A program made the translations under genes and the position numbers. From contig MWEZ01000005.1 of NCBI GenBank assembly GCA_002071335.1, forward strand, positions 1 to 40,528: a DNA stretch of 40,528 bases, given 5' to 3'. This stretch comes from Verrucomicrobia bacterium ADurb.Bin018. GTDB taxonomy: Bacteria > Verrucomicrobiota > Kiritimatiellia > CAIQIC01 > Lenti-01. This document shows positions 1-38,699 of this stretch, one piece after another (the stretch's first letter is position 1; each line of letters begins with the position of its first letter). Below the pieces are notes generated by a model, which ran no database searches, had not been told where the DNA came from, and saw only the letters and a program-made list of their open reading frames with translations.

Positions 1-75
1 TGAAGATCGGCGGGGTTCTTCGCGGCGTTCTGCCGCGCTCTTCCGCCCTGCGGGTTTCGGGTGGGGGCGCGCGCG
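1..75. repeat. Left arm of 75-bp island-flanking inverted repeat
   Basis: Positions 1-75 are the exact reverse complement of 9005-9079: base i pairs with 9080-i. The match breaks at 76/9004. It may continue to the left of the window, because 9080 could also pair. The two arms enclose the AT-richer six-gene block. The arms are GC-rich and have no coding signal. Confidence 0.9.
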
Positions 76-771
76 GGAATGCGGTACGCGGCAGCTCGCC
101 GCGAGCCCAACCCCGCCTCCGATCCGCGCTCGGGCTACGCCCTCGCTTACGCGCGTCGTTCAAATCCGCCTGACGGCGGATTTCCAACGCCGCTTGTCCG
201 TCCGCGCCTTTCCAGGCCATTTTTCGGGCTCATTTCGGCGCTTTGGGGGCTAAAAATGCCCCCCGCGCCTGCATTTCACCCAAAAAATGGCCTCAAAAGG
301 CGCTGCAAGGCCGCCTGCAACTCGCCCCGAGTGTCCCGCTACGCGTGAAACTCGGGGCCACTTGCTTAACGGCGGCCTAGCCTGCCAGGCGCGGACTCTG
401 GACCGCGCCCGGCACCGTCCCGACCGCGCAGACGCGTTCGGGACTGGGGTCGCGCCTGACGGCGCTCCGCGGCATGGTCTCTCAATCCTCTAGGAATTTT
501 TAACAGCCCCCCGATTAAATCCGCTCCGCCCGCAACGCCCCCTTCGCACCTAAGAGCGCGAGGATCCCCGACCTCGGGGCCAGAAAAACGGCCGCGCCAC
601 TACGCCGCACCCGAGGCGGGCGCGGCTGAGGGCGCTGACCGCCTGCGGCGGTCGCCGTTTTTCCCGGCCCCTCAGTCGGTCGCGCTCTACGGTGCTCAAG
701 GGGCGCCGCGTGCTCCGCTCAACAGCCCCGGAGACAGCCCGAACCCTCCAGAAAACAGCCCTAAAACCGAG
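76..771. other. GC-rich stretch without genes
   Basis: About 700 bp of GC-rich DNA. Open frames exist on both strands, but they are short, Arg/Pro/Ala-rich, overlap one another and lack ribosome binding sites, so I call no gene. One hairpin is visible at 637-653 (GACCGCC, TGC loop, GGCGGTC), followed nine bases later by five T. It resembles a weak terminator on the plus strand, but no plus-strand gene precedes it. Confidence 0.6.
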
Positions 772-958
772 TTTTCCACAGTGTGGACAAAGTTTTTCCA
801 TTGTGTGGAAAACTGGCGAAAAGTTTTTCCATTGTGTGGAAAAATCGCCAAAACTTTTTTCCATTGTATGGAAAATATGGCCCGTTTTTTCCACAGTGTG
901 GAAAATATTTTTCCATAGCGTGGAAAAATCCCGAGAAAGTTTTCCATACTGTGGAAAA
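772..958. repeat. Seven-copy helically phased palindrome array (TTTTCCA-N5-TGGAAAA)
   Basis: Seven imperfect palindromes share a CCA-N5-TGG core flanked by T and A runs. Core centres are at 781, 803, 834, 866, 896, 918 and 949, so successive spacings are 22, 31, 32, 30, 22 and 31 bp. These are close to two or three turns of B-DNA, which places every site on the same face. The central five bases vary (CAGTG, TTGTG, TTGTA, TAGCG, TACTG), while the arms and spacing are kept. This suggests cooperative binding of a dimeric protein, as at iterons, parS-like sites or multi-operator promoters. The array lies just past the 3' end of the minus-strand island operon. Confidence 0.85.
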
Positions 959-1021
959 CCACGGCGCCAGGACGGTCAGAACAATGTCGGGATAATCATT
1001 TTTATTAGAGTTTCGGGGTGT

Positions 1022-1855
1022 TCACCTTGCATGTGAAAGGCCGAGCTCTTCAAATACAAGATTTGGAGGCTGTTCAAACGACCACCGAAAACTAATTCGA
1101 GCGCGATCCTTTTTTTCTTCTTTTTCTGTTAGAAATACCATTCTTGCGCCTGGATATTTCTCTCGGACCTCTTGGGTCAGCCTCCAATAAAACGCATCAA
1201 TATCTTTCAACTCTGGATAAAAATATTTTACAACAAATGCAGCATAATCGATCCGAAGTCTTTGGAAATATTCTTCCGTAAGACTAATTAAGTCCAGATC
1301 CCCATGCTCTGCGGTCAGCCTAGATCTTTTCCAGCCGCTATACTCTTTAACAAGCTGGGCCGCGCTGTGTGTGATTGATATTGTTATGCTGTGTGTTGAC
1401 TCGTTGCGTGAACAATGTCCGATGGGCAGGGCAAAATGTTGTGCGTAATTTCTAAAATCCATAAAGAATGCCGACGCCCATGATGTCTCACAGAACTTAC
1501 TCAGGAAGCTTTTATACTCCGCAAGCTTTGTCTGGTCTTTTCTGTACCGCTGCTTATAGGACACTTCAAAGTGTTCGATTACTCCATATGCCGAAGAAAG
1601 GAAATTGAACATAAGTCGATCAAAGGTCAGGTGGTCATCTTCTTTGCGAGGACCAGGCGCAATAAACTTCCGTTGGTGGGCCGACCACTCTCTGTAGTTC
1701 AGCTCAAGGATTTGGAAAAGCTTCAGACGGTTTTGCGCCTCCGTGAACTTATCTCGTAATTCAATATCCTTTTGCACCTCTTCATCTGTGAGCGGTCGTA
1801 TCTCTTTGAGATTATTTCGCGCGTTGTCCCAGGCCGCTAGTTGTGGTGCGCTCAT
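1022..1855 (-). CDS. Unknown protein with HEPN-type R-N-x3-H motif
   Basis: A 277-residue, charged, largely helical protein with no signal peptide or membrane segment. I do not recognise the full-length family. Residues 135-140 read RNYAQH, preceded by a hydrophobic helix (WASAFFMDF) and followed by ALPIGH. This fits the R-x4-6-H active-site motif of HEPN ribonucleases, including the polar Asn after the Arg. HEPN proteins commonly act as RNases in toxin-antitoxin and abortive-infection systems, so an RNA-cleaving effector is my inference. ATG start at 1855 follows an AAGAGG-type ribosome binding site. It is the last gene of the island operon, 22 bp after the PIN gene. Confidence 0.7.
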   Translation of the reverse strand: MSAPQLAAWDNARNNLKEIRPLTDEEVQKDIELRDKFTEAQNRLKLFQILELNYREWSAHQRKFIAPGPRKEDDHLTFDRLMFNFLSSAYGVIEHFEVSYKQRYRKDQTKLAEYKSFLSKFCETSWASAFFMDFRNYAQHFALPIGHCSRNESTHSITISITHSAAQLVKEYSGWKRSRLTAEHGDLDLISLTEEYFQRLRIDYAAFVVKYFYPELKDIDAFYWRLTQEVREKYPGARMVFLTEKEEKKDRARISFRWSFEQPPNLVFEELGLSHAR

Positions 1856-1877
1856 AAATCCTCTTTATAGTATTACG

Positions 1878-2603
1878 CTAAGCATCTTGGCATTTACTAA
1901 TTTCACCCAAGGCCCAATTCCAATTTTTACACAGGATGGCGCCGCGTGAAATAAGTTCCTTGTCGATAGGGGGCTTAGGGTATTTGGGGCCGTCGAAGAA
2001 ATCCTCTGAATTTGATGTGAGTAATATTCTTTTGCGGCAGTTGGATCCCGTGGTGAGATTGTCGAACAGTTCCATCGTATGCTCATAGACAACACAATCT
2101 GCCACCTTGCCTTTTCTCGCCGGCGGAATGCAGGAAAGGGCTCGACTTGTTGCGCGCATTGACGGGGCATTTTCATTATGGAGCAATAAGCTAGTTGATA
2201 AAATCCGCTCGCTTACATCATAAAAATATTTTGCAGTCCTTTCCACGGGGAAAGAAAGGGATGGCATAACCTCTCCATGTGCGGCAGCCGCCGTTTTAAT
2301 ATTTTGATAAGCGCGCCCCGCTTCTGAAATGAAACCCTCTAACTCTGTTCGTGTGGCGGGAGCGTTTCTGTGCCACTCATCCGATACAGGTGGCGGGCAA
2401 ATAATCGTTACCTTTTGAGCGCTGACCAGCGCTTCAATCCTATATACTGCCGCAAGGGTCCGGGCGATGTCTTTTTCGTTAGTGGCTCGCATCGGAAGTC
2501 TAATAATGTCTATTAGTGCGCATGTATCACATACGAGTACATGTGACCCGTTAGCAGATATAATCTGCGCTGCGTCATGAATTGAAATTGGCGAGGGCGG
2601 CAT
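1878..2603 (-). CDS. PIN-domain ribonuclease-like protein
   Basis: A 241-residue cytoplasmic protein. The N-terminus carries a beta strand ending in the first PIN aspartate (HVLVCDTCALIDI, D26). A middle acidic residue follows (PPPVSDEWHRN, E76), then a conserved acidic helix (KVADCVVYE, D169 and E174) and a final strand LLTSNSEDF (D201). This order matches the metal-binding acid cluster of PIN nucleases, which cleave RNA. At 241 residues it is longer than VapC toxins (about 130) and closer to the larger stand-alone PIN-like proteins of defence loci. The ATG directly abuts the upstream stop (TAA then ATG, no gap), so it is probably translationally coupled to the preceding gene. Its substrate is unknown. 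Confidence 0.75.
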   Translation of the reverse strand: MPPSPISIHDAAQIISANGSHVLVCDTCALIDIIRLPMRATNEKDIARTLAAVYRIEALVSAQKVTIICPPPVSDEWHRNAPATRTELEGFISEAGRAYQNIKTAAAAHGEVMPSLSFPVERTAKYFYDVSERILSTSLLLHNENAPSMRATSRALSCIPPARKGKVADCVVYEHTMELFDNLTTGSNCRKRILLTSNSEDFFDGPKYPKPPIDKELISRGAILCKNWNWALGEISKCQDA

Positions 2604-3245
2604 TTATTTGCCGAGGTAATGCTTTAGCAAGCCCACCTCTTGTTCATACTCAATTGCCATTGCTTCTGCGGTATCTGCATCCCAACCATCCTCTTCAACA
2701 AGCAACCGGGCTAAACTAGAAGAATGAAGATTGTCATTATTTCTGACCACCGCGATGATAAACTCATACCATCGTTCTTTATCGTTAGGGTGAGAGGTGC
2801 CCGTTGATTTATTGGCAAGTGCGGAAAAAGTATGAAACTTCTTGGCGGTGTCAGGCGACACCCAGTTTTCAAGCGTAGCCTGCCCGGACGAGCGTATCAC
2901 GCGCAAATTCATTTTTTCAGCGACTGGCCTAATGCATTTATCATCAAATTCATCTAAAATATAATTGTACTGATCATGCTTTAGTTCGCTGACATCTCTA
3001 GGCACGATATTGGATACATACATGACACTTTCATCCCTTGCTACCAAAGCCACGAGCGCCGCGGGCCTTTCTCCCTCTGGCGTACAAACAAAATAATAGA
3101 ATTTGTCCTCGGTTGCCGACGGCGTATCTTCTTCCGCTTTTCTGTCGCGTATCCAGCCGGCGGGGAGTGTGCGCTCAAGACCAGCCAAGAATTCTTTGCG
3201 CATATTTGTGTCCACTTCAATTTCGAGATCCTTAAATACTTTCAC
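2604..3245 (-). CDS. Unknown protein coupled to PIN nuclease gene
   Basis: A 213-residue soluble protein I cannot place in a family. The N-terminal half is alpha/beta with strands such as FYYFVCTP and ALVALVARD. The C-terminal third (RWYEFIIAVVRNNDNL... EEDGWDADTAEAMAIEYEQEVGLLKHYL) is helical and acidic. It starts with GTG at 3245, preceded by an AGGGGA ribosome binding site about eight bases away. The stop codon touches the ATG of the PIN gene, and the restriction-modification gene ends 13 bp upstream. Tight coupling to a nuclease suggests a partner role (antitoxin, sensor or adaptor), but nothing in the sequence proves it. Confidence 0.65.
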   Translation of the reverse strand: MKVFKDLEIEVDTNMRKEFLAGLERTLPAGWIRDRKAEEDTPSATEDKFYYFVCTPEGERPAALVALVARDESVMYVSNIVPRDVSELKHDQYNYILDEFDDKCIRPVAEKMNLRVIRSSGQATLENWVSPDTAKKFHTFSALANKSTGTSHPNDKERWYEFIIAVVRNNDNLHSSSLARLLVEEDGWDADTAEAMAIEYEQEVGLLKHYLGK

Positions 3246-3258
3246 CGGATTCCCCTTT

Positions 3259-6030
3259 CTATTCTCTTATGGTCTGTCTTATCCGCGTCCGCTTCTTTGC
3301 CTTTTCGGGAAAAAGAGTGGTTCTGGATTGGTAAAGGGAGAAAAGAAATTCGAGGCGGGCGCGTTCGGTGTCAAAGGGGGCAGAGCGATAGGCGCGATCT
3401 ACGGCTCGGTCGAGCGAGGCGTGGGCTTTGGCAAGGCCGAGGGGCATGGTGACGGGATCGTAAAGGTCGGCGAGAGCGGCGCCGCTGGCCTGGTGTTTGG
3501 CGCGCTCATCCAAGACCGCTTGCGCGCAACGCTCGATTTCCGCGCGGCGCGCAGGTGTTTCTTGTGGCAGCACAAAAGTATGAAATACGGCCGGTGAATA
3601 GCTGTATCGGGATTCAAGTCTCCCTGCAACTTGACGCATCCATGCCATGTGCATGGCCGAAGTCAGAATCCCGAAAAGATAAGGCGTCGCATTGGGCAGA
3701 ACATATAGCTTGTTGCTGGCGATGATTGATTTGTCGTTATAGCCGATTGGAATGTAGAATCGCCGTTCGGATGATACTTCGGGGATGACCAAGTAATCGC
3801 TTTCAGGCTGGCGAATCTGCGTGAAGACGGCGGGTCGGCGGGCATCAGCCTGGACGGACTTGGTTGGACTCTTGGCGCGAAATTTGGCAACCGCGTTAAT
3901 CCGCTCCATGATTTCGGGCATTTGGCGAAGCTTGGCGGGCGGCGCATCCACAAGCCAAAGACAATATCTCTTGCCGTTGTTTATGAATTCGTCAGCGCCC
4001 ATGTATTGGCGGATGAATTCTGCGGCTTCTGGATATTTTCCAACTAGAACTTTCCGCTCATCTTCGCTGAAAATCAGATTCCCCCCATCGGTCGGCTGGC
4101 TGCCCTTTGAAAGGTCGGGATATTCGCTGTTCAAATTGTGCCCGCGCGACTGAATGAAGATGTCAAGCGCATCCACAAGATATGCGTTAATTCGCTTGGG
4201 GTTGCTAACAACCGGTTCTCCGCTTTCGTTTTCATAGGTGAAAAGGATTTTTCGCGGTCGGTCGTTTAGGGAAAATCCAACAACAACAACAGACACATGG
4301 GCCTTGCCTCTGGCTTCGCTTTCCCATGGAAAGGTATGGTGAGCAAAGTTGATTATTACTTTGTACTTCTCGAAAAGCATCTGCCACAACGGGGCGACGG
4401 TTTCGCCTTGGCAAATGGAATTCGTGGACACAAAGGCGCATTCAATGTCGGTTCCCTGTATATATTTTGCGGCGAGCTTGTACCAACAAGTGACAAAATC
4501 GAGTTTTCCCGTTTTGGGATCGTCGGCGAAAACGACTTTCATGTCGTCTTGCTGTTCGGGACTTCGCCATTGATGCCCGACAAAAGGGGGATTCCCCATG
4601 ACATAGGAACATTCTTTGGGCGGGAGAAGCTTGGCCCAGTCGGTGCGAAGGGCGTTGGCGTGGAGTATGGCTGCGGATTTCGTCAGAGGCAGGCGAATAA
4701 GCGGCTTGCCGAGCTTTTCGGCGAGGTCGCGGTTCATAAGGTGATCCATCAGCCACATTGCCACTTCGGCGATGCGGGCGGGCCATTCGTCGATTTCGAT
4801 GCCGAAAAACTGGTCCACATTTACGCGGGCGATGTGCGAGATGTCGAAAACGGTCTGTCCCTGATGGAGGGCGAAAAGGAGTTCGTTTTCGATGGCGCGG
4901 ATTTCGCGGTAGGAAATCACGAGGAAATTGCCGCACCCACACGCGGGATCCATGAATTTAAGCGAAGCGAGCTGGTCATGGAGCCGATTCAGCGCGGCGT
5001 GGTTTGTCCCTGCCTTTTTTAACTGTGCCTGCAAGTCGTCGAGAAACAGCGGCCGGATGACCTTTAGAATGTTGGCCTCGGAGGTGTAGTGGGCGCCGAT
5101 CTGGCGACGGGCGCGGGGTTCCATGACGCCTTGAAAAAGCGCACCGAAGACGGCGGGCGAGATGCGCGACCAGTCGAAACGGGTTGCCTCAAGTAGCGCC
5201 TCGCGCATGTTCGTGCTGAAGTGGGCGACAGTCAGCGGCGAGGCGAAAAGCCCCCCGTTTACATACGGGAGTCCAGCGAGGGATTCATCGAGAGTAGATT
5301 GCCGTTGGTCGCGCGGGGTGTTTAGCGTATCAAAGAACTCGGCAAGTCGAGACCCAAGGTCTTTGCCGTCGGGAGTCGAATCGTTTACGAGGTTGTCGAA
5401 TGCGCTTGCATCAAAGATGCCTGTGTCGTTCGCAAAAAGGCAAAAGAGCAGCCGAACGAGATACACTTGGCGCTGATGGTCGGGATAGCCCGCATCTTCC
5501 AGCGTGTCGCACAGGTTCGCCATAAGTTCGGCGGCCTTAATATTGACGGCTGGCTCCTCGGCGAAGGTATGCTGCTTATATCCGGCGATGAACGCAAAGT
5601 GTTTGATTTTGCGATGGAATTCCTTTAGCGGGAAGTCGGCGACAAGGCGCTCGTCGGCTTCAAGGTCATAAAGCTGTATGCGCGCAAAGTCGGTGACGAC
5701 GATATATTGCGGGACTTCGGCTTGGCGGCCTTCGCGGGTCAGGTCTTGGACATAGTCGAAGGCCTGGCCCTTGGCTTTTTCCAAGTCCCGCCCAGCGGAT
5801 TTATGCTCGGCAAGAAGACGGCCTTTCCAGAAAAGATCGATCCGGTTATAGGTCCCTTGGATAGACCGGACGGGCTCCTCGAAGCTGGCGACGGCGCGGC
5901 GGTTTAGGCCGAACACATTAAAGAAGGCGTCCCAAAATGACTTTGCCTCGGCGGTCTCTCGGGTTTCATCGGCCCACTCTCGGGAGAAGGCGACGGCGCG
6001 GGCCTTGATTTCATTCCAGCTCAACGGCAT
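3259..6030 (-). CDS. MmeI-like restriction-modification enzyme (nuclease-methyltransferase fusion)
   Basis: A 923-residue protein that joins cleavage and N6-adenine methylation in one chain, as in Type IIL (MmeI-family) enzymes. The N-terminal nuclease has D65-x9-E75-x-K77 (RIDLFWKG then LLAEHKSAG), the D-x9-ExK layout of MmeI. The methyltransferase core follows: motif X-like RRQIGAHYTSE (309-319), SAM-binding motif I DPACGCGNF (361-369) and catalytic motif IV NPPFVG (480-485). The remaining about 400 residues would be target recognition and coupling. Such enzymes need SAM and recognise asymmetric sites, methylating one strand. All catalytic motifs are intact. The gene begins 71 bp after the kinase gene and lacks a clear Shine-Dalgarno sequence. 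A TATAAC hexamer lies just upstream, so it may have its own promoter. Confidence 0.93.
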   Translation of the reverse strand: MPLSWNEIKARAVAFSREWADETRETAEAKSFWDAFFNVFGLNRRAVASFEEPVRSIQGTYNRIDLFWKGRLLAEHKSAGRDLEKAKGQAFDYVQDLTREGRQAEVPQYIVVTDFARIQLYDLEADERLVADFPLKEFHRKIKHFAFIAGYKQHTFAEEPAVNIKAAELMANLCDTLEDAGYPDHQRQVYLVRLLFCLFANDTGIFDASAFDNLVNDSTPDGKDLGSRLAEFFDTLNTPRDQRQSTLDESLAGLPYVNGGLFASPLTVAHFSTNMREALLEATRFDWSRISPAVFGALFQGVMEPRARRQIGAHYTSEANILKVIRPLFLDDLQAQLKKAGTNHAALNRLHDQLASLKFMDPACGCGNFLVISYREIRAIENELLFALHQGQTVFDISHIARVNVDQFFGIEIDEWPARIAEVAMWLMDHLMNRDLAEKLGKPLIRLPLTKSAAILHANALRTDWAKLLPPKECSYVMGNPPFVGHQWRSPEQQDDMKVVFADDPKTGKLDFVTCWYKLAAKYIQGTDIECAFVSTNSICQGETVAPLWQMLFEKYKVIINFAHHTFPWESEARGKAHVSVVVVGFSLNDRPRKILFTYENESGEPVVSNPKRINAYLVDALDIFIQSRGHNLNSEYPDLSKGSQPTDGGNLIFSEDERKVLVGKYPEAAEFIRQYMGADEFINNGKRYCLWLVDAPPAKLRQMPEIMERINAVAKFRAKSPTKSVQADARRPAVFTQIRQPESDYLVIPEVSSERRFYIPIGYNDKSIIASNKLYVLPNATPYLFGILTSAMHMAWMRQVAGRLESRYSYSPAVFHTFVLPQETPARRAEIERCAQAVLDERAKHQASGAALADLYDPVTMPLGLAKAHASLDRAVDRAYRSAPFDTERARLEFLFSLYQSRTTLFPEKAKKRTRIRQTIRE

Positions 6031-6101
6031 GGGAAGAAAAATATCAGGTTATAGGGGGTTTGCATAGGCTGTGTAGCAAGTCTTATCACAATGGGTATCG
6101 C

Positions 6102-8405
6102 TCAGGCAGAGGGCAGCCCATCCTCCGCGATTTTCTTTCGCGTAGACTTTTTATCCTCGGAAGATTTCTTCATGGTCTCGCCCATTTCTATATTTCCTAA
6201 AGCGCAGTAGACTTGCCCCATTTTCCAATCGGGCTCTGACCTCAGAGGCGCGAGTTGGGAGGCCTTTTGCATATTGTTAATTGCTTCATCATTCAGCCCA
6301 GCTAGATATTTCGCCAGCCCCCTGTAATACGGTACCAGCCAATTGCGGGGATGCTTTGCCTCAGCTTCCACGAATAGTGCTTCCGCTTCTTTGTGCCGGT
6401 TCATTCGCGCATATAGTTCTGCCAAGTAGCAATATTCTTCAACCTGTGTATTCTCTCTCCTGACTGCTTTCTCGAAATAATCGATTGATTGCGGCACCAC
6501 AATTCTTTTCCCGCTTTTATCAACAACCCATCCGTCAGCAATGGCCATCGCCATCGTACGATTGAGCATTATTGAATCATTAAGCTCAGGCATCCACTTT
6601 ATGCAATAGTCGACACACTCTTTATATGATCCTGTTTCCAACAATAATCGACCGATTTGACTTATCGCAAGTTGGCCGTGCACATTTCCCTTGCCGGCCA
6701 TATTTACCACCTCCTTAAATTCGTCGGCGGCATTTTCATATAGCTCTAGTTTCAATAATACTGAGGCTAATGTATATCTCGCGGACAGAAATCTGGGGTT
6801 CTGGTGTTTGGCTTCGGTCAAATACCTTAAAGCCATTTTCATATAGTCTGTATATTGGTTCCAATCTTGCTCGCCGTATTCATCTGCCAGACGAATCATG
6901 ACGGCCGCCGCCTCTTCAAGTGAGTGGACATTTCTTCCACCCTTAAGGCGGGCTTCCAGATAATGCAAAGCATCTGAAAGCTTGTTCTGGGATTGGAGAG
7001 CTATTACATAGTTTCCAAGTAGATCCTTGTCGGTTGGGCTCTTCTTAAGCCCGGCCGCGCATATTTGCTCGGCTGCAACCGAATCATGATTATGCAGTAA
7101 GGCCAATGAGTAGTTTACATAGTATTCTGCGGGAAGATCGTTCATTCTTGCGAGGGGCTCAAAGATATTTACAGCCTCTTTTGCCCTCATACATTTTACT
7201 AAACAAGTCGCATAGTTTAGGGCGATGGTGTGTCCCATATTCCACTTTGCGTCCGGGTTAGCAATTTCAGGATCATATAGTGGCGCAAGGATGTCTTTGG
7301 CCTTTCCCCATTGTCCGAGTGCGATCAAAGCCTCACACTCTTCAATGTATGGCATTATATTGACCAGATCGACTACTCCGCATGGAGCATTATCTTTTCT
7401 AATATCTACAGTCTTATGAAATTCACCGCGGCCAATTGCTGGCCGAAACTGGCGCATTTTAGGACTACTCTCTGAAATATCAATGCGCCGCTTGTTGGCA
7501 ACTCGGCCGACCTCCCCGAGAAGTTCCTCATAGTTCTGGAATCGCTCGTTTGGTTCTTTTAGCAGGCACCGCTCAATAATTCTTTCAAGTCCAAGATTTG
7601 TTCGGCGGAATAATCCAGCACCAAGTCCGGGCGCTTTGTCGCGCAGATGATGTGTTGCAATTTCCCCTACAGTTCGTCCCGTGAACGGCGGCTTCCCGCT
7701 TTCCAGTTCATACATAATACATCCAAGGCTATAAATATCCGAACGGAAATCGATTTCGTGTTGGCCGAGAATCTGCTCTGGCGATGCATAATATATGGTT
7801 CCGAGGAATGATCCCGCTTGCGTTGCCCCTGGACGATCGATATTCCCCGCCGTCATCGTTTCGTTAGTGCACTTACGCAATTGCCTTTCGACAAGCTTGG
7901 CAAGACCCCAGTCGGAAATATAGGCCAATCCTTTTTCGTCATGAAGGATGTTCTCTGGCTTAAGGTCTCGATGCACGGATTTATGTTTCTTCTCAACCCA
8001 GTCCAGGGTGTGCAACACGCGGGCAATCGCGCTATACACAAAAGCGGGGGAGCAATCGCCTGCGCGCATTCTGCTGCGGAGTGTTCCGCCTTGCATCCAC
8101 GGCGAGCAGAGGCAGGGTATTTCATTCAGCCGGGCTAAGCAGATGGCCTCCACCACGCCCGTCGATTCAGACAGCGTAAAACACAGCTTTAATTCATCAA
8201 TAAACCTTCGCCATGCCAGATCATTTTCCATTAACTCAGGCCGGATAAGCTTGACCGCATAAGCGGTTTCATTTTCGGAATGTACGATTTTCAGACAGGT
8301 TCCCATCCCCCCGGCCATGATGTCCGCAACGCGGAAATTAGGCGTGGCTGTCCCTGCTGCTCCTGACAATTCAGGTAATATAATATTATCGCCTATTTTC
8401 ACCAT
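6102..8405 (-). CDS. Ser/Thr protein kinase with C-terminal TPR domain
   Basis: A 767-residue cytoplasmic Hanks-type kinase. The sequence shows a glycine-rich loop (MAGGMGT, 30-36), the ATP lysine K52 (YAVKLI), the catalytic loop HRDLKPEN (145-152; D147), a metal-binding DWG in place of DFG (165-167) and an activation-segment SPE in place of APE (YYASPEQIL). Key residues are present, so the kinase should be active. From about residue 350 to 740 the protein is a run of TPR-like helical hairpins, typical of protein-protein sensing scaffolds. There is no transmembrane helix, unlike PknB-type receptors. It lies 11 bp after the HEPN-like gene, so the two are probably co-transcribed. The context suggests a phosphorylation-controlled defence or abortive-infection module. 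The kinase substrate cannot be read from the sequence. Confidence 0.93.
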   Translation of the reverse strand: MVKIGDNIILPELSGAAGTATPNFRVADIMAGGMGTCLKIVHSENETAYAVKLIRPELMENDLAWRRFIDELKLCFTLSESTGVVEAICLARLNEIPCLCSPWMQGGTLRSRMRAGDCSPAFVYSAIARVLHTLDWVEKKHKSVHRDLKPENILHDEKGLAYISDWGLAKLVERQLRKCTNETMTAGNIDRPGATQAGSFLGTIYYASPEQILGQHEIDFRSDIYSLGCIMYELESGKPPFTGRTVGEIATHHLRDKAPGLGAGLFRRTNLGLERIIERCLLKEPNERFQNYEELLGEVGRVANKRRIDISESSPKMRQFRPAIGRGEFHKTVDIRKDNAPCGVVDLVNIMPYIEECEALIALGQWGKAKDILAPLYDPEIANPDAKWNMGHTIALNYATCLVKCMRAKEAVNIFEPLARMNDLPAEYYVNYSLALLHNHDSVAAEQICAAGLKKSPTDKDLLGNYVIALQSQNKLSDALHYLEARLKGGRNVHSLEEAAAVMIRLADEYGEQDWNQYTDYMKMALRYLTEAKHQNPRFLSARYTLASVLLKLELYENAADEFKEVVNMAGKGNVHGQLAISQIGRLLLETGSYKECVDYCIKWMPELNDSIMLNRTMAMAIADGWVVDKSGKRIVVPQSIDYFEKAVRRENTQVEEYCYLAELYARMNRHKEAEALFVEAEAKHPRNWLVPYYRGLAKYLAGLNDEAINNMQKASQLAPLRSEPDWKMGQVYCALGNIEMGETMKKSSEDKKSTRKKIAEDGLPSA

Positions 8406-8416
8406 TCTTCTCTGGT

Positions 8417-8908
8417 TTAGTCGGGGATCGGTGGATTAGACGCGGTTGCGAAATACTTTTCAATTGCCACAATCAACCAATAGGCGTTGTCAGCCTCATT
8501 TTCGGCGATTTTAATCTCACCTCTATCATGGAATGCCTTTTCATGGACCAATTCTTTGCGGCATTTCCGGAGCCTCTCAACCGCATCTAGAATCGCCTCT
8601 TCAGTACAACCAAGAATCTCAAGCCCTTCTTTATAGCTAAAATCTCTATCATGCTTCTTGGCTTTCTGTGCGCCATTCTTGCGTACTATTTTCAGATGAA
8701 GAAAGGCGGTTAACCAAATGCTCGCAAATACTATGGTGACGAACGCCTGCTTAAGTGAGTTGCGCTCGGGATCGACAGATATGATCCACCCTTCGCTCCC
8801 ATCGCTCTTTGGCTTGCGGCCAGAGGCGATATATTTCTGCATTTTTCCGTGTGCATCCCGCGCAATGGCTTTATAGGTCTCAACATTCGTATTCAGTAGG
8901 CGGCTCAT
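8417..8908 (-). CDS. HEPN-like small protein, first gene of island operon
   Basis: A 163-residue, helix-rich protein. A hydrophobic helix (AFVTIVFASIWLTAFLHL, about 55-72) is followed by a basic stretch and a C-terminal helix pair with R117-x4-H122 (CRKELVHEK). That matches the general R-x4-6-H HEPN signature in the right place, although the residue after Arg is Lys rather than the usual Asn, Asp or His. HEPN proteins are RNases or RNA-binding partners. The ATG at 8908 has AAGGA close upstream. It is the promoter-proximal gene and lies 11 bp before the kinase gene, which makes it a plausible kinase target or effector. The fold assignment is moderate, the function inferred. Confidence 0.65.
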   Translation of the reverse strand: MSRLLNTNVETYKAIARDAHGKMQKYIASGRKPKSDGSEGWIISVDPERNSLKQAFVTIVFASIWLTAFLHLKIVRKNGAQKAKKHDRDFSYKEGLEILGCTEEAILDAVERLRKCRKELVHEKAFHDRGEIKIAENEADNAYWLIVAIEKYFATASNPPIPD

Positions 8909-9004
8909 TTTCCTTATGCACTCAGTCAGTTATCCCCGGCAGTTTCCGGCGTTTTTTCATTTTTGGCTAGAGTAAAAGCACAAGACAGTTAGAGAAAGTG
9001 AAGA
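8909..9004 (-). promoter_or_regulatory. Probable leader/promoter region of island operon
   Basis: This 96-bp AT-richer gap between the first island gene and the right inverted-repeat arm is the only place left for the operon promoter. Reading the minus strand there are weak hexamers (TTGTGC, and GATAAC nearer the gene), but none makes a convincing pair. I mark the region, not a specific promoter. Confidence 0.35.
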
Positions 9005-9079
9005 CGCGCGCGCCCCCACCCGAAACCCGCAGGGCGGAAGAGCGCGGCAGAACGCCGCGAAGAACCCCGCCGATCTTCA
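9005..9079. repeat. Right arm of 75-bp island-flanking inverted repeat
   Basis: Exact reverse complement of 1-75. It lies 97 bp upstream of the first island gene. Immediately outside it the sequence becomes very GC-rich. The two arms mark the likely edges of an acquired or invertible 9-kb block. Confidence 0.9.
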
Positions 9080-9556
9080 CGCCGAGGGCAACGCCCGAGG
9101 CGCAGGCGAGCGAGCGCCAGCGAGCGAGTTCCACCCGGAGCCCAGCCGTGGACGCCGCAGGCGTGACGGCGGGGCGAGGAATGGCCAGCCCCCGGCGCAG
9201 GCCGCGCCACGCCGCGCCAGCGGCGGGGCCGTGGCCGAAGCGGGGGCGGCCATCCCCCGAGCGAAGCGAAGCGGAGCGAGGGTCAGCGTAGCGGCGCGGA
9301 GCGCCGCGCGTAAGGGGGGAAGCCGCGCAAAGGGGGGCAGCGTAGCGGCGGCGCAAGGGGGGCTTGAGGAGGTCGCGGCAGAGGGGGGCAAGGAAGGCCG
9401 GGCTATGGGGGAAACGCGGCCAAGGGGGGAAGGCAAGGCCGCGCAAGGGGGGCTTGAGGTAGGCCGCGCAAAGGGGGGAAGGATTACGGGCTTTTATTTC
9501 CGGCAGTTCCTGGCATAGTCGGGGTCGAAGCTGGTTCTACAGTACAGGGCCAGCCG
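9080..9556. other. GC-rich non-coding stretch with G-run array
   Basis: There is no credible gene here. Frames on both strands are compositionally biased (Arg/Ala/Pro) and have no ribosome binding site. From 9314 to 9478 the plus strand carries eight runs of five or six G, starting at about 9314, 9332, 9357, 9383, 9407, 9424, 9447 and 9473, with GCGCAA often preceding them. The phrase GCGCAAGGGGGGCTTGAGG occurs twice (9351 and 9443). Confidence 0.6.
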
Positions 9557-9900
9557 CCACCATATAGTACGATTCGATTTTTGCGCGGGGGACAGCGCAG
9601 AAAATGCCGCGACAGCATTGAGCGGCGCGGGGTATTCCACTCGCAAGGCAGGCTCCCGCTCGGACACCTGAAACACGAACGCGGACGGGCATCCCTCGGC
9701 CCCAAACGCGGCGGCGACTTGGGCGGGATCGGCGGACGGATCGAAGGTCGCCCCCTCCGAAAAGGCCTGTGGAACGGGCTCGGTGCGCGGCCGGACCGGC
9801 GCGGGGCGTGCGGCAAGGCCGCCGCCCCGGCCCTCGGGCTCGGGTCCACCGGGCGGCAGATGGGCGCAGGTCAAATCCGCTGGGGTGCGGGTCCCGATGG
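9557..9900. repeat. Left 344-bp inverted repeat of recombinase element
   Basis: Base i matches the complement of base 21638-i in 11738-12081. I found no mismatch on reading both arms. The inner border follows GGTCCCGATGG at 9900 and the outer border is CCACC at 9557. A minus-strand frame crosses it, but the same peptide also appears as the tail of the recombinase reading frame, so I do not call a separate gene. Confidence 0.92.
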
Positions 9901-10029
9901 TCGCCGCTGCGCGGCGGTTGTCGCGTCGCAACCGGCCCACTTCGCGGCCTTTGGCGCTCGTTCCTCGCACGCGTCCGCGAGCGGTCCGCCTGCGCCGCGT
10001 TATTTTCTCATTATTTCCCCAACCCCGCC

Positions 10030-10059
10030 TTGACTCCCTCCCTCCCCAGGGCGTAGGGT
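10030..10059 (+). promoter_or_regulatory. Likely promoter of abrB-like/recombinase operon
   Basis: TTGACT (10030-10035) lies 18 bp before TAGGGT (10054-10059). It is a good -35 with a weak -10. The start codon at 10097 is 38 bp downstream, with AAAGGGGA as ribosome binding site. Confidence 0.45.
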
Positions 10060-10096
10060 TATGCCGTAAGTTAGATTTACGCGAAAGGGGAACCCG

Positions 10097-10333
10097 ATGC
10101 ACACGGACATCGCTTGTCTTTCCACCAAGGGGCAGTTTGTGATTCCGCGCCGTTTCCGCGAAATCCTAAAACTGACGGCGGGCTCAAAAATGGTGATGAT
10201 GACCGACGGCACACACCTGCTATTGAAGCCCATCGCCCGACCGGACACAAAAGCCTTCAAAGCCGTCATTGATGGCATGAAAGCATTGGAGCAGAAAGCC
10301 GCCGTGAAGAAGGCGAAAGGGGGCCGCAAATGA
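10097..10333 (+). CDS. AbrB/SpoVT-type DNA-binding protein
   Basis: A 78-residue protein with the swapped-hairpin AbrB/MazE fold near the N-terminus: LSTKGQFVIPRRFREILKL followed by KMVMMTDGTHLLLKPI. The C-terminus is a Lys/Ala-rich helix. Family members are small dimeric DNA-binding regulators or antitoxins. A strong ribosome binding site (AAAGGGG) precedes ATG 10097. Its stop overlaps the recombinase start in ATGA, so the pair is translationally coupled. It may repress the shared promoter or help the recombinase choose sites or direction; the sequence does not decide. The lack of an adjacent MazF/VapC toxin argues against a simple antitoxin role. Confidence 0.85.
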   Translation: MHTDIACLSTKGQFVIPRRFREILKLTAGSKMVMMTDGTHLLLKPIARPDTKAFKAVIDGMKALEQKAAVKKAKGGRK

Positions 10334-12090
10334 AATACTTTCTGTATGCGCGGAAGTCCACCGACGAGGACGACAAGCAACTGCTTTCCATCGAGGCGCA
10401 GCTTCAAGAGTTGCGCGAGTATGCCGCGCGGGAGCGGCTGGAAGTGGTCTGCGAATTTGTCGAGAAGCGGACGGCGAAGGAGCCCGGAAGGCCGATCTTC
10501 AATGATATGATTCGACGGGTGGAGAAAGGCGAAGCCGACGCGCTGCTGGCGTGGCATCCCGACCGCCTCGCGCGGAATTCGGTGGACGGCGGGCGGATCA
10601 TCTACCTGGTGGACACCGGCAAGCTGGCAGCCTTGAAGTTCCCGTCGTTCTGGTTCGAGAACACGCCGCAAGGGAAGTTCATGCTCTCTATCGCGTTCGG
10701 GCAGAGCAAGTACTATGTGGACAACCTGAGCGAGAATGTGCAACGAGGCATCCGGCAGAAAGTGCGCCTGGGCTGGTATCCGGGCCGCGCGCCCATCGGC
10801 TACGCGAATGAGCCGCGCCTGCGCACCATCGTGATCGACGAGAAAACGGCCCCGCTGGTCCGTAAGCTTTTCGAGTCCTACGCGAGTGGCGAGACGAGTT
10901 TTCAGGCGCTGGCGGACATGGCGAACCGGATGGGCTTGCTGACCTGCCGGGACAACACTTTCCGCAAGTCCTGGATGCGGGGCCTGCTGTCGAATCCGTT
11001 TTATATCGGCATGTTCCGGTTGAAGGGTGAACTCTACGAGGGGCAGCATGAGCCTTTGATTTCGCGCGAGTTGTTTGACCGCGTGCAGAAGATGCTCAAT
11101 CAGCGCAGCCGAGCACAGCAAAGCCCGCGCAAGGGCGATCCATGCTTTTTCACGGGGATGATCAAATGCGGCTCGTGCGGGAGCGGCATCACGGCGCAAC
11201 GGCAGAAGGGGCACCATTACTACAACTGCACGCGGCACTTTGGCCCTTGCGATTTGAAAAAGTACATCCGCGAGGAATCGCTATCCCTGGAAATCCACGC
11301 CGCGCTGAGCTACCGCACCTTGCCGGGCGAGGTGGCCGACTGGATTCTGGCCCAGGTTGATCAGTGGCAGGCCGAGGAGGCGCACCGTTCCGAAGGGTTG
11401 GCGGCGCAGCACGCGGCACGGCTCGACGACATCCAAGCGCGGCTGAATCGGCTGCTGGATGTGTACCTCGAAGGCACGGTGGACAAGGAGGAATACACGG
11501 CGCGGAAGGAAGCCTTTATCCGCGAGAAGGCTTCCTTGTCCGCCGACCTCGCCCAAATCAAGACCAATGGGGCGGGCTGGATTGAACCTTTGCGCGCCTT
11601 CGTTACCGACTGCAAAGAAATGGGTTCCGATTTGGCCGAGGCCGACGCTGAGGAATTGGCCCGTTTTGCGAAAAAGTCGGTATTGAATCTAAACATTGTG
11701 AAGCCGATTCGGGGCCGGAAGGACGGAAAACCCGTAGCCATCGGGACCCGCACCCCAGCGGATTTGACCTGCGCCCATCTGCCGCCCGGTGGACCCGAGC
11801 CCGAGGGCCGGGGCGGCGGCCTTGCCGCACGCCCCGCGCCGGTCCGGCCGCGCACCGAGCCCGTTCCACAGGCCTTTTCGGAGGGGGCGACCTTCGATCC
11901 GTCCGCCGATCCCGCCCAAGTCGCCGCCGCGTTTGGGGCCGAGGGATGCCCGTCCGCGTTCGTGTTTCAGGTGTCCGAGCGGGAGCCTGCCTTGCGAGTG
12001 GAATACCCCGCGCCGCTCAATGCTGTCGCGGCATTTTCTGCGCTGTCCCCCGCGCAAAAATCGAATCGTACTATATGGTGGGCGTTATAG
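10330..12090 (+). CDS. Large serine recombinase with tail running into the inverted repeat
   Basis: Open frame of 586 residues. The N-terminal resolvase domain has the catalytic serine S10 in YARKST and the arginine cluster PDRLARN. A recombinase domain follows (GWYPGRAPIGYAN...), then a zinc ribbon (CGSCGSG ... YYNCTRHFGPC) and a C-terminal coiled coil (about residues 355-420), as in phage-type integrases. Recognisable sequence ends near residue 470 (GRKDGKPVA). The last about 115 residues are encoded by the right inverted repeat and the frame stops inside tRNA-Val. This Pro/Gly/Ala-rich tail is probably not part of the ancestral enzyme. Inversion between the repeats would replace its last two residues (AL) with about 20 others. 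The ATG overlaps the abrB-like stop, with AAAGGGGG upstream. Confidence 0.92.
   Translation: MKYFLYARKSTDEDDKQLLSIEAQLQELREYAARERLEVVCEFVEKRTAKEPGRPIFNDMIRRVEKGEADALLAWHPDRLARNSVDGGRIIYLVDTGKLAALKFPSFWFENTPQGKFMLSIAFGQSKYYVDNLSENVQRGIRQKVRLGWYPGRAPIGYANEPRLRTIVIDEKTAPLVRKLFESYASGETSFQALADMANRMGLLTCRDNTFRKSWMRGLLSNPFYIGMFRLKGELYEGQHEPLISRELFDRVQKMLNQRSRAQQSPRKGDPCFFTGMIKCGSCGSGITAQRQKGHHYYNCTRHFGPCDLKKYIREESLSLEIHAALSYRTLPGEVADWILAQVDQWQAEEAHRSEGLAAQHAARLDDIQARLNRLLDVYLEGTVDKEEYTARKEAFIREKASLSADLAQIKTNGAGWIEPLRAFVTDCKEMGSDLAEADAEELARFAKKSVLNLNIVKPIRGRKDGKPVAIGTRTPADLTCAHLPPGGPEPEGRGGGLAARPAPVRPRTEPVPQAFSEGATFDPSADPAQVAAAFGAEGCPSAFVFQVSEREPALRVEYPAPLNAVAAFSALSPAQKSNRTIWWAL
11738..12081. repeat. 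Right 344-bp inverted repeat of recombinase element
   Basis: Reverse complement of 9557-9900. It begins within the recombinase reading frame and ends at 12081, six bases inside the 3' end of tRNA-Val. The tRNA CCA and discriminator therefore belong to both the gene and the repeat. Confidence 0.92.
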
Positions 12091-12152
12091 GACTCGAACC
12101 TATGACCTCGTGCATGTGAGGCACGCGCTCTAACCAACTGAGCTAAACGCCC
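12076..12152 (-). tRNA. tRNA-Val (anticodon CAC)
   Basis: On the minus strand the acceptor GGGCGTT pairs with AACGCCC, followed by discriminator A and an encoded CCA. The anticodon arm is CGTGC-CTCACAT-GCACG, giving anticodon CAC (codon GTG). The T-arm contains GGTTCGAGTCC. The gene is intact although the recombinase element abuts its 3' end. Confidence 0.95.
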
Positions 12153-12659: not shown

Positions 12660-13173
12660 GAACTTCGCGCACTCTAGTTGTTTCCGGTTGGATTGCTGGG
12701 CTGGAACGGTCGCAGACCTTCCAGCCATGCCCGGCGGGAAGGTTTCATTCTTCAACCATTCCCGCCCTACAAAAGCAGCCGGTTGGATTGTTGGGCTGCT
12801 TGGTTTGACGGTTTTGACCTGACCTCTGAACCCTGACCACTCCTACCGCGGTCACCGCCCGCGGCTACAGAAACAGCCATGACAGCCGAACAGGAAAACA
12901 AAAAACCCAGGAAAGCAGGAAAAATCATTGTCTGGATTGTTGCGTCTTTGTCGGCCGGAATGGCCAACACCTTTCCATCTCTCTCCTTCGCGTGCTTTGC
13001 ATCTCTGCGAGATTCATCTTCATTCCCAGCCCAAGCACAAAGCACCAAGAACCAAGTACCTCCGGCTTTTTTCCTGCTTGGTTTTTCCGATCCCGCCGCC
13101 GATACAACGGCGGCCTACATCAAATCCTGACGTCGTATTTGAGGCCAGGGTTGCATTCCCGGCGGGCATTTTT
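12660..13173. other. Intergenic region of scrambled repeat fragments
   Basis: About 510 bp without a gene. GGTTGGATTG(C/T)TGGGCTG occurs twice (12686 and 12781). A stretch near 12985-13015 (CGTGCTTTGCATCTCTGCGAG) resembles junk motifs that recur between genes. The hairpin at 13088-13122 has a second copy at 31597. Short frames here are not credible genes. Confidence 0.55.
13088..13122. repeat. Interspersed hairpin repeat, copy 1
   Basis: CGATCCCGCCGCCGATA, then CAACGGCGGC and after two variable bases ACATCA, is repeated at 31597-31631 with few differences. The core GCCGCC/GGCGGC arms form a hairpin with an eight-base loop. Both copies are intergenic, like REP-type elements. Confidence 0.7.
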
Positions 13174-17544: not shown

Positions 17545-18090
17545 TTATTCAGCAGCTTCTACCGCCGCCGGGGCTTCGACGGCCTCAGCCGCTTTTTCCG
17601 CGGCCTTCTTGCCTTTGCGCTCAGCCTTTTTCACCGGAGCGTCGGCTTTCTTTTCAGCCTTTTTGCCCTTGCACTCGGCCTGCTTTTCGGCCTTTTTGGC
17701 CGCGCAATCCGCCTGCTTGGCCTTGCAGTCGGCCTTCTGCGCCGCGCAATCAGCCTTCTTGGCTTTGCAATCAGCCTTCGGGGCCTTGCCATCCGCCTGC
17801 TTCATGGGGCAATTCGGGTTCTTGCAGTTGGCATTGTCCTTGGTGCACTTGCACTCGCCCTTGGCCTTGCAGTCCGCCTTCTTGGCCTTGCAATCGGCTT
17901 TTTGAGCCTTGCAATCGGCCTTCTTGGCAGCGCAGTCGGCCTTGGCCTTTTCGGCGCAAGCCTTCTGGTCAACCTGCTGCTCCACGGCGGGCTGATCGGC
18001 GGCAGCCTTTTTGCCGAAAATCCACCACGCCTGCGAGCTCATGGCCGACGCGAAGACCACGGCCAATGCCATCATTGCTACTTTCTTCAT
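17545..18090 (-). CDS. Secreted Cys/Lys/Ala heptad-repeat protein
   Basis: A 181-residue protein with a Sec signal (MKKVAMMALAVVFASAMSSQA, cut before WW). The mature chain is almost wholly K, A, D, C, Q and E. Its unit is a heptad such as KKADCKA, with cysteines at 45, 53, 60, 67, 74, then a denser middle (80, 82, 89, 94), then 108, 115, 122, 129 and 140. Seven-residue spacing places Cys on one face of a helix, so metal binding or disulfide-linked bundles are plausible. I recognise no family. AGGAG lies nine bases before the ATG, and a good promoter and terminator bracket the gene, suggesting high, independent expression. Mature composition is cationic with an acidic end (EAVEAPAAVEAAE). Confidence 0.85.
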   Translation of the reverse strand: MKKVAMMALAVVFASAMSSQAWWIFGKKAAADQPAVEQQVDQKACAEKAKADCAAKKADCKAQKADCKAKKADCKAKGECKCTKDNANCKNPNCPMKQADGKAPKADCKAKKADCAAQKADCKAKQADCAAKKAEKQAECKGKKAEKKADAPVKKAERKGKKAAEKAAEAVEAPAAVEAAE

Positions 18091-31479: not shown

Positions 31480-31596
31480 TCCCCTTCCCGCCTTGTGGCC
31501 ATGCTTGCGGCCTTTGGCGTCGCTGGCGTCGTTAGCGTTAAAAATTCTTCTCTCCTGCTTTTCTGAGTTTCCTACGTTCCTGTTGGGCTTTTGTTT

Positions 31597-31631
31597 CGAT
31601 CCCGCCGCCGATATAACGGCGGCTGACATCA
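31597..31631. repeat. Interspersed hairpin repeat, copy 2
   Basis: Matches 13088-13122 closely: CGATCCCGCCGCCGATA then TAACGGCGGC then ACATCA. It lies in the 190-bp gap between the toxin-antitoxin pair and the CHAP gene, which otherwise shows only junk-like sequence. Confidence 0.7.
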
Positions 31632-38560: not shown

Positions 38561-38588
38561 CCATCCAGAGTTTATAAACTCTGGATGG
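38561..38588. repeat. Perfect 28-bp palindrome, copy 1
   Basis: Half-site CCATCCAGAGTTTA followed by its exact complement TAAACTCTGGATGG, with no spacer. Identical copy at 38672-38699, 111 bp away centre to centre. In RNA it would form a 12-bp hairpin; in DNA it is a symmetric protein site or cruciform. Confidence 0.95.
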
Positions 38589-38671: not shown

Positions 38672-38699
38672 CCATCCAGAGTTTATAAACTCTGGATGG
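38672..38699. repeat. Perfect 28-bp palindrome, copy 2
   Basis: Same 28 bp as 38561-38588 with no mismatch. The flanking bases differ between the copies, so only the palindrome is duplicated. Confidence 0.95.

Follow-up and report, generated by a model that had tools for sequence, protein, structure and literature searches.

The inverted repeats beside a tRNA-Val gene in the window (the whole 40,528-nt stretch of Verrucomicrobia bacterium ADurb.Bin018 DNA analysed here) are best explained, with moderate confidence in the explanation as a whole, as parts of an integrated mobile element from a family of large serine recombinases for which tRNA 3' ends serve as attB, with an inverted attP retained inside the element. 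Elements of this kind are widespread in Patescibacteria, and are also present in Kiritimatiellae and other phyla.

Self-comparison of the window located two arms of 344 nt (termed r and r'), 100% complementary to each other and spaced 1837 nt apart, on either side of an AbrB-like gene and a serine recombinase gene (Table 1). A previous reading of the sequence alone (the sequence-only reading) had proposed that these perfect arms exist and that one of them includes the CCA of tRNA-Val, and both points were borne out: the right arm overlaps the last 6 nt (CCACCA) of the tRNA-Val(CAC) gene, and the same 6 nt are carried by the left arm, such that both arms end in CCACCA. When the 344-nt unit was searched for elsewhere in the genome, as that reading had suggested, only these two full copies were found. 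The reading frame of the recombinase extends across the right arm to a stop codon within the tRNA gene, and about 115 C-terminal residues of the protein are encoded by r' itself. Resolvase, Recombinase and zinc-ribbon domains are combined in this one protein, which is similar to the C-terminal domain of the A118 integrase and to SPbeta YokA; the A118 integrase is among its few solved relatives. The assignment of the AbrB-like protein is weak. A second perfect inverted pair, at 1–75 and 9005–9079 (100%), belongs to the same element, and is incomplete, since position 1 of the window coincides with the first base of contig 5 in this 429-contig genome.

Table 1. Coordinates in the window of the arms, junctions, genes and cargo of the element, with the evidence for each assignment.
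Feature	Position	Strand	Evidence or remark
r, inner inverted arm located 5' of the AbrB-like and recombinase genes	9557–9900	+	100% complementary to 11738–12081
r', inverted arm overlapping the tRNA-Val 3' end, encoding the C-terminal part of the recombinase	11738–12081	-	Inverted-repeat match, reading frame
tRNA-Val(CAC), putative attB half of the outer junction	12076–12152	-	ARAGORN, Rfam
T-loop box GTTCGA of tRNA-Val	complement of 12094–12099		
CCACCA, tRNA 3' end common to both arms, containing the putative core (tRNA positions 71–74)	12076–12081	-	Sequence, site comparison
Putative internal intact attP (c', core, r)	9530–9585	+	T-loop mimic GTTCTA at 9534–9539
c', second inverted arm, recombinase-side end of the cargo module	9005–9556	+	9005–9079 is the inverted copy of 1–75; outer part (beyond 9005–9079) assigned from the conserved c arm in L216
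c, inner end of the far arm of the cargo module	1–75	-	Remainder beyond contig start
AbrB/MazE-like small protein, 78 aa	10097–10333	+	Weak: TIGR01439, E = 6.5e-5 (below its cutoff); PF04014, E = 0.0015
Large serine recombinase, frame ending in the tRNA gene	10330–12090	+	PF00239, PF07508, PF13408
Cargo: MmeI-type (type IIG) restriction-modification enzyme	3259–6030	-	
Cargo: protein kinase-TPR protein resembling the PD-T4-6 defence family	6102–8405	-	
Cargo: PIN-like protein, weak	1878–2603	-	PF16289, E = 7e-4, below cutoff
Palindrome array TTTTCCA...TGGAAAA in the cargo near c	767–958	no strand	

Other repeats are found further along the window. A 28-nt perfect palindrome-like repeat occurs twice, at 38561–38588 and 38672–38699, with 83 nt between the copies, a 21-nt periodic repeat array (17653–17984) is located within the gene of a short, Lys/Ala/Cys-rich, secreted-looking protein, and a 41-nt repeat (13082–13122 and 31591–31631, 88% identical) is probably a dispersed intergenic repeat.

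Relatives of the recombinase are encoded at 80 loci in Kiritimatiellae, many Patescibacteria, Marinimicrobia, Omnitrophota, Deltaproteobacteria and other taxa, and 75 of these loci were examined for arms using a strict filter. In 58 of the 75, self-comparison revealed a recombinase flanked by near-perfect inverted arms, and arms outside the filter were present in several more loci (L007, L008, L009, L010 and L012). The r/r' arms have a median length of 98 nt and a median identity of 98.8%. The arm located 3' of the recombinase, r', overlaps the 3' end of a tRNA on the opposite strand, and the tRNAs concerned are many: an adjacent tRNA was recognised at 56 loci, with 16 amino-acid kinds represented. 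At all 56 the recombinase points toward the tRNA, and a flipped recombinase was never seen among the loci examined. In every case the internal site is found a short distance (40–430 nt) upstream of the recombinase.

Inverted arms are absent in 16 more distant serine recombinases from related genomes. For 6 of them, the gene likewise borders a tRNA 3' end, and its frame terminates at the tRNA or within it. Because distant armless relatives share both tRNA targeting and the orientation of the recombinase, these two traits look older than the arms, and the inverted second attP looks derived when compared with such repeat-free recombinases at tRNA ends. The distant recombinases at L098, L102, L103, L104, L108 and L111 are read toward the tRNA 3' end, stop at or in it, and have no inverted arms.

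The sequence-only reading had also suggested a search for empty tRNA-Val sites: 8 family genomes contain a tRNA-Val-like gene (91–95% identical to that of the window) without an arm, but no strict empty site was seen in the sequences examined, nor was a circle or a recombination product. The flanks of L220 match G022, G024 and G026, but the contigs end there or hold another element, and when the joined flanks of L205 were searched for within its genus, only their own halves were returned. No directionality factor was identified. A plasmid or phage origin was rejected, as plasmid records gave no match at E ≤ 1e-40, and the phage recombinases were only distant (≤28% identity among the matches listed), with no relative on a viral contig. 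At L223 (6894–6939, G007:C11), a 46-nt fragment of a tRNA-Val 3' half, 98% identical and with no full tRNA, is probably the attachment-site remnant of another element.

The junctions of the arms have the appearance of attachment sites. On the tRNA side of the outer junction in the window, the T-loop box GTTCGA is located 18 nt before the arm, and on the c' side of the internal junction a variant of the box, GTTCTA, is located 23 nt before the arm, a shift of 5 nt. Across the 51 loci compared, the shift of the box in c' relative to the tRNA is 5 nt in 33, 4 nt in 17 and 7 nt in 1 (a first, unrestricted regular expression gave a difference of 4–5 nt in 43 of 53 tRNA loci, and the search range was later restricted to remove wrong hits). 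About four bases, corresponding to tRNA positions 71–74, are shared among the sites of a given element. In the case of the A118/LI integrase, mutational tests showed that the distance from the crossover to the zinc-ribbon motif is 5 bp shorter in attB than in attP (PMC3783163), and a shift of 4 or 5 nt, in agreement with this rule for large serine recombinases, is found in 50 of the 51 loci. Since the box shift matches the A118/LI rule and the recombinase is kin to the A118 integrase, we take the tRNA–host junction to be attB and c–r to be attP, with attL at tRNA–r' and attR at c–host. On this assignment, c'–r within the integrated element reads as an intact attP that has been kept in inverted orientation. 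This differs from the classical single-attP layout, in which no attP is left after integration, as tRNA–r' and c–host are accompanied by the inner c'–r junction. Judged from these comparisons, it is very likely that an element, a tRNA target and an inner attP are all present together. The premise of the sequence-only reading that serine recombinases use short sites is still valid, as c'–r would be the functional site, with the long arms as additional sequence on its flanks.

A second inverted pair, c/c', encloses cargo in 19 loci and abuts the first pair, mostly with an overlap of 4–6 nt, and more such pairs were found in 20-kb stretches of long or complete contigs, such as L220. The layout of the element is accordingly tRNA, r', recombinase, r, c', cargo, c and host, and its outer ends are r' and c, which are not copies of each other. 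In the window, c' extends over approximately 9005–9556 and the cargo over 76–9004, and c itself is interrupted by the contig start. In L216 (G004:C62), which belongs to a different family genome, the homologous c arm reaches the same kind of junction. The span 9557–12081, to which the feature had originally been assigned, thus corresponds to the module of AbrB-like gene and recombinase that is framed by r and r', while the element extends past 9557 into the c/c' pair and the cargo. The suggestion of an undescribed element with long terminal repeats holds insofar as a long-repeat element is found at tRNA 3' ends family-wide, but the two arms are not both element ends: r' is the end on the tRNA side, the far end is c, with a different sequence, and r is internal. 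Whole composites are stacked at one tRNA in L195 (AP024682) and L020. A general reading as two independently stacked elements (a recombinase element and a separate cargo element) was rejected, because each pair has like ends (r/r' and c/c') and the junction is always attP-like. Copies of the c arm with 71–99% identity, some beside recombinase remnants, are found elsewhere in the genome that contains the window (G000, contigs C104, C43, C212, C138 and C224), and may represent further elements or relics.

The arms differ by ~5–30% between related elements, whereas the two copies within most elements are 95–100% identical. By sequence comparison, this is concerted evolution of the arms within elements, which supports the previous proposal of recent origin or active conversion. 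Concerted evolution can be unequal for the two pairs, as in L189, where the identity is 81% for r and 99.7% for c; the use of the arms as a clock for insertion age was rejected on account of this strong difference within one element.

Elements with similar arms and 76–90% similar recombinase DNA have different cargo genes, and most pairs share limited stretches near c'. The cargo ranges in size from 0.5 to 12 kb and can be a single gene of 0.5–1.2 kb. Restriction-modification genes (types I, II and IIG) are plentiful in the cargo, where Mrr, Vsr, Shedu-like and kinase proteins were also counted, and no relaxase is among the 25 most frequent cargo families listed. Palindromes of the form TTTTCCA...TGGAAAA near c, which resemble DnaA boxes, occur in the window and in L209 (787–945) and L216 (5848–5913), and were seen only in related elements.

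The cargo edges (the first and last ~100 nt) contain 13–37-nt inverted copies of fixed places in the element's own recombinase module, namely the leader, two neighbouring sites within the gene, and the ~28 nt that immediately precede r'. Such copies are present in 23 of 26 composites (L014, L020–L022, L025, L026, L031, L036, L037, L192, L195, L199 and L205 among the loci) and in none of the 26 cargo middles. They match the gene of their own element exactly although the genes differ between elements, and their order is permuted, with leader and gene end contiguous and r missing. These edge pieces are not explained by the two-module model, and count against it. In L078 (2424–3792) the edge copies are in direct orientation, unlike in other elements, and because of this the whole cargo module appears to have flipped between c and c'. 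Flipping of the inner part of the repeat, as envisaged in the sequence-only reading, is possible, yet the recombinase faces the tRNA wherever an adjacent tRNA was recognised, and the only flip observed is that of this one cargo module.

In the mechanism that we favour, the sequence shows a tRNA half-site with the T-loop box GTTCGA and the acceptor end, and an element half-site c that mimics the box 4–5 nt farther out, in line with the attP/attB rule; this T-loop mimicry would explain how one family is able to use nearly any tRNA. Of the integrated ends, r' reads as the attL half and c as the attR half, leaving the internal c'–r junction as an intact inverted attP. Recombination of attL with attR would excise a circle in which two inverted attP copies separate the recombinase from the cargo, and integration would normally proceed via the attP copy at the 3' end of the recombinase, such that the orientation would be fixed. 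The second attP would bound each module on both sides by the same half-site and flanking sequence, and recombination between the inverted arms would keep them identical and occasionally flip a module; the cargo would be exchanged and the recombinase retained. We propose this role of the second attP in cargo exchange tentatively. Somewhat more speculative is the wider notion of a two-module mobile system in bacteria, whose serine recombinase would recognise the universal T-arm of tRNAs and employ the additional inverted attP for exchanging, flipping or amplifying cargo, and it is with the same reserve that such a system might be likened to integron cassettes or the 2-micron circle as their serine-recombinase counterpart. 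Counting against the model, equal use of both attP copies predicts that half of the recombinases point away from the tRNA, and none was observed.

Other roles for the inverted arms can be envisaged. Inverted arms permit inversion, and the module flip in L078 is a documented case, which would suit an orientation switch: inversion across r/r' would place the recombinase under read-through from the tRNA and turn excision on, with the orientation toward the tRNA as the silent state. The uniform orientation would follow from a short-lived or deleterious opposite state; however, no flipped recombinase was seen, and the armless distant relatives have the same orientation, so that a switch is not needed to explain it, and we regard this role as unlikely. 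A little less likely is amplification in the manner of the 2-micron circle, where the excised circle would replicate and recombination between the inverted attP repeats would turn a fork around. The predicted circle has the appropriate topology (two unique regions and two inverted repeats with recombination sites), and the cargo of the window includes, near c, an array of palindromic DnaA-box-like TTTTCCACA, but this array was seen only in the window's close relatives, the cargo may be a single small gene without a replication gene, and recombination of attP with attP is not a usual reaction of serine integrases. Of similarly low probability is a function as operator, in which the recombinase would bind the internal attP before its own gene and repress itself, the site being inverted since a direct repeat would delete the gene. 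The constant position of the internal site and its fully retained attP signature are consistent with this, but c/c' around the cargo is left unexplained and the arms far exceed the length of a binding site.

Less probable again is a role in single-stranded DNA, for instance from transformation, in which r would pair with r' and c with c', enabling one strand to make a double-stranded attP, as in integron attC sites or the CTX phage. The arrangement of inverted pairs is exactly as needed, and a fixed orientation is typical of single-strand mechanisms. However, serine recombinases cut both strands, which would result in a broken chromosome with hairpin ends, and the orientation is equally fixed in the armless relatives. 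Long perfect inverted repeats flanking the recombinase might also point to a conventional transposon that bears long terminal inverted repeats and landed beside the tRNA, but this is very improbable given that the outer ends r' and c are not mutual copies, that the sites are always tRNA 3' ends, and that the enzyme is a serine recombinase. A DDE transposon or insertion sequence was likewise rejected, as the outer ends are not inverted copies of each other. An assembly artefact, raised in the sequence-only reading as a possible refutation, might be suspected from the fragmented 429-contig assembly and from the contigs of the nearest relatives, which break inside the arms (L007 and L008). It is scarcely credible, as dozens of assemblies made independently show the same architecture, among them megabase contigs and records titled complete genomes (AP024682 and CP011210).

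The integrated element with a retained attP resembles several known systems in part. The yeast 2-micron circle consists of two unique regions and two inverted repeats with a recombination site, with the recombinase in one region, a topology resembling that of the predicted circle, but it uses a tyrosine recombinase and is a eukaryotic replicon that is not integrated. Integrons and tycheposons have exchangeable gene cargo, and tycheposons also restore the tRNA 3' end. The present element is like them in its possibly exchangeable cargo and differs in recombinase class and attachment sites, theirs being tyrosine recombinases acting on other sites; assignment as an integron was rejected, as the enzyme is a serine recombinase rather than a tyrosine integrase. 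SCC elements, with their Ccr enzymes, also combine a serine recombinase with insertion at a gene 3' end, and CcrB and CcrA are the nearest NCBIfam models of the present recombinase. However, the insertion target of SCC is rlmH, while that of the present element is a tRNA, and assignment as an SCC element was rejected because the recombinase falls below the NCBIfam cutoffs for CcrA/B/C (score of 126.8 with the CcrB model, cutoff 900). The A118, Bxb1 and Tn4451 types (LSR prophages and integrative mobilizable elements) share the enzyme class, the attP/attB half-site logic and a short core common to all sites, but have a single attP and no inverted-repeat modules, whereas the present element appears to keep an inverted second attP inside. 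Reviewed serine-recombinase IMEs sit inside protein genes, with tRNA 3' ends listed for tyrosine enzymes (PMC5704250), unlike the present element, which targets the T-arm and acceptor end of a tRNA. The multi-targeting large serine recombinases described by Durrant et al. 2022 (PMC10083194) are likewise a case of one recombinase family with many target sites; the example targets there are short AT-rich motifs, and tRNA, inverted repeats and palindromes are absent from the text. No paper combining the features of the present element was found among the open-licence papers searched, where absence is not proof of novelty.

The element family is apparently widespread and undescribed, and its architecture, with a retained inverted attP and two inverted-repeat modules, is new as far as the literature was searched. 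It suggests a testable rule, namely that a T-loop box at attB spacing would allow one recombinase family to use almost any tRNA gene, and the same box in attP at a shift of 4–5 nt would be a natural confirmation of the attB/attP model. The hosts are bacteria with poorly known mobile elements, and the cargo includes restriction and other defence-like genes. Multi-site serine recombinases with a definable tRNA target may also be of interest as integration tools.
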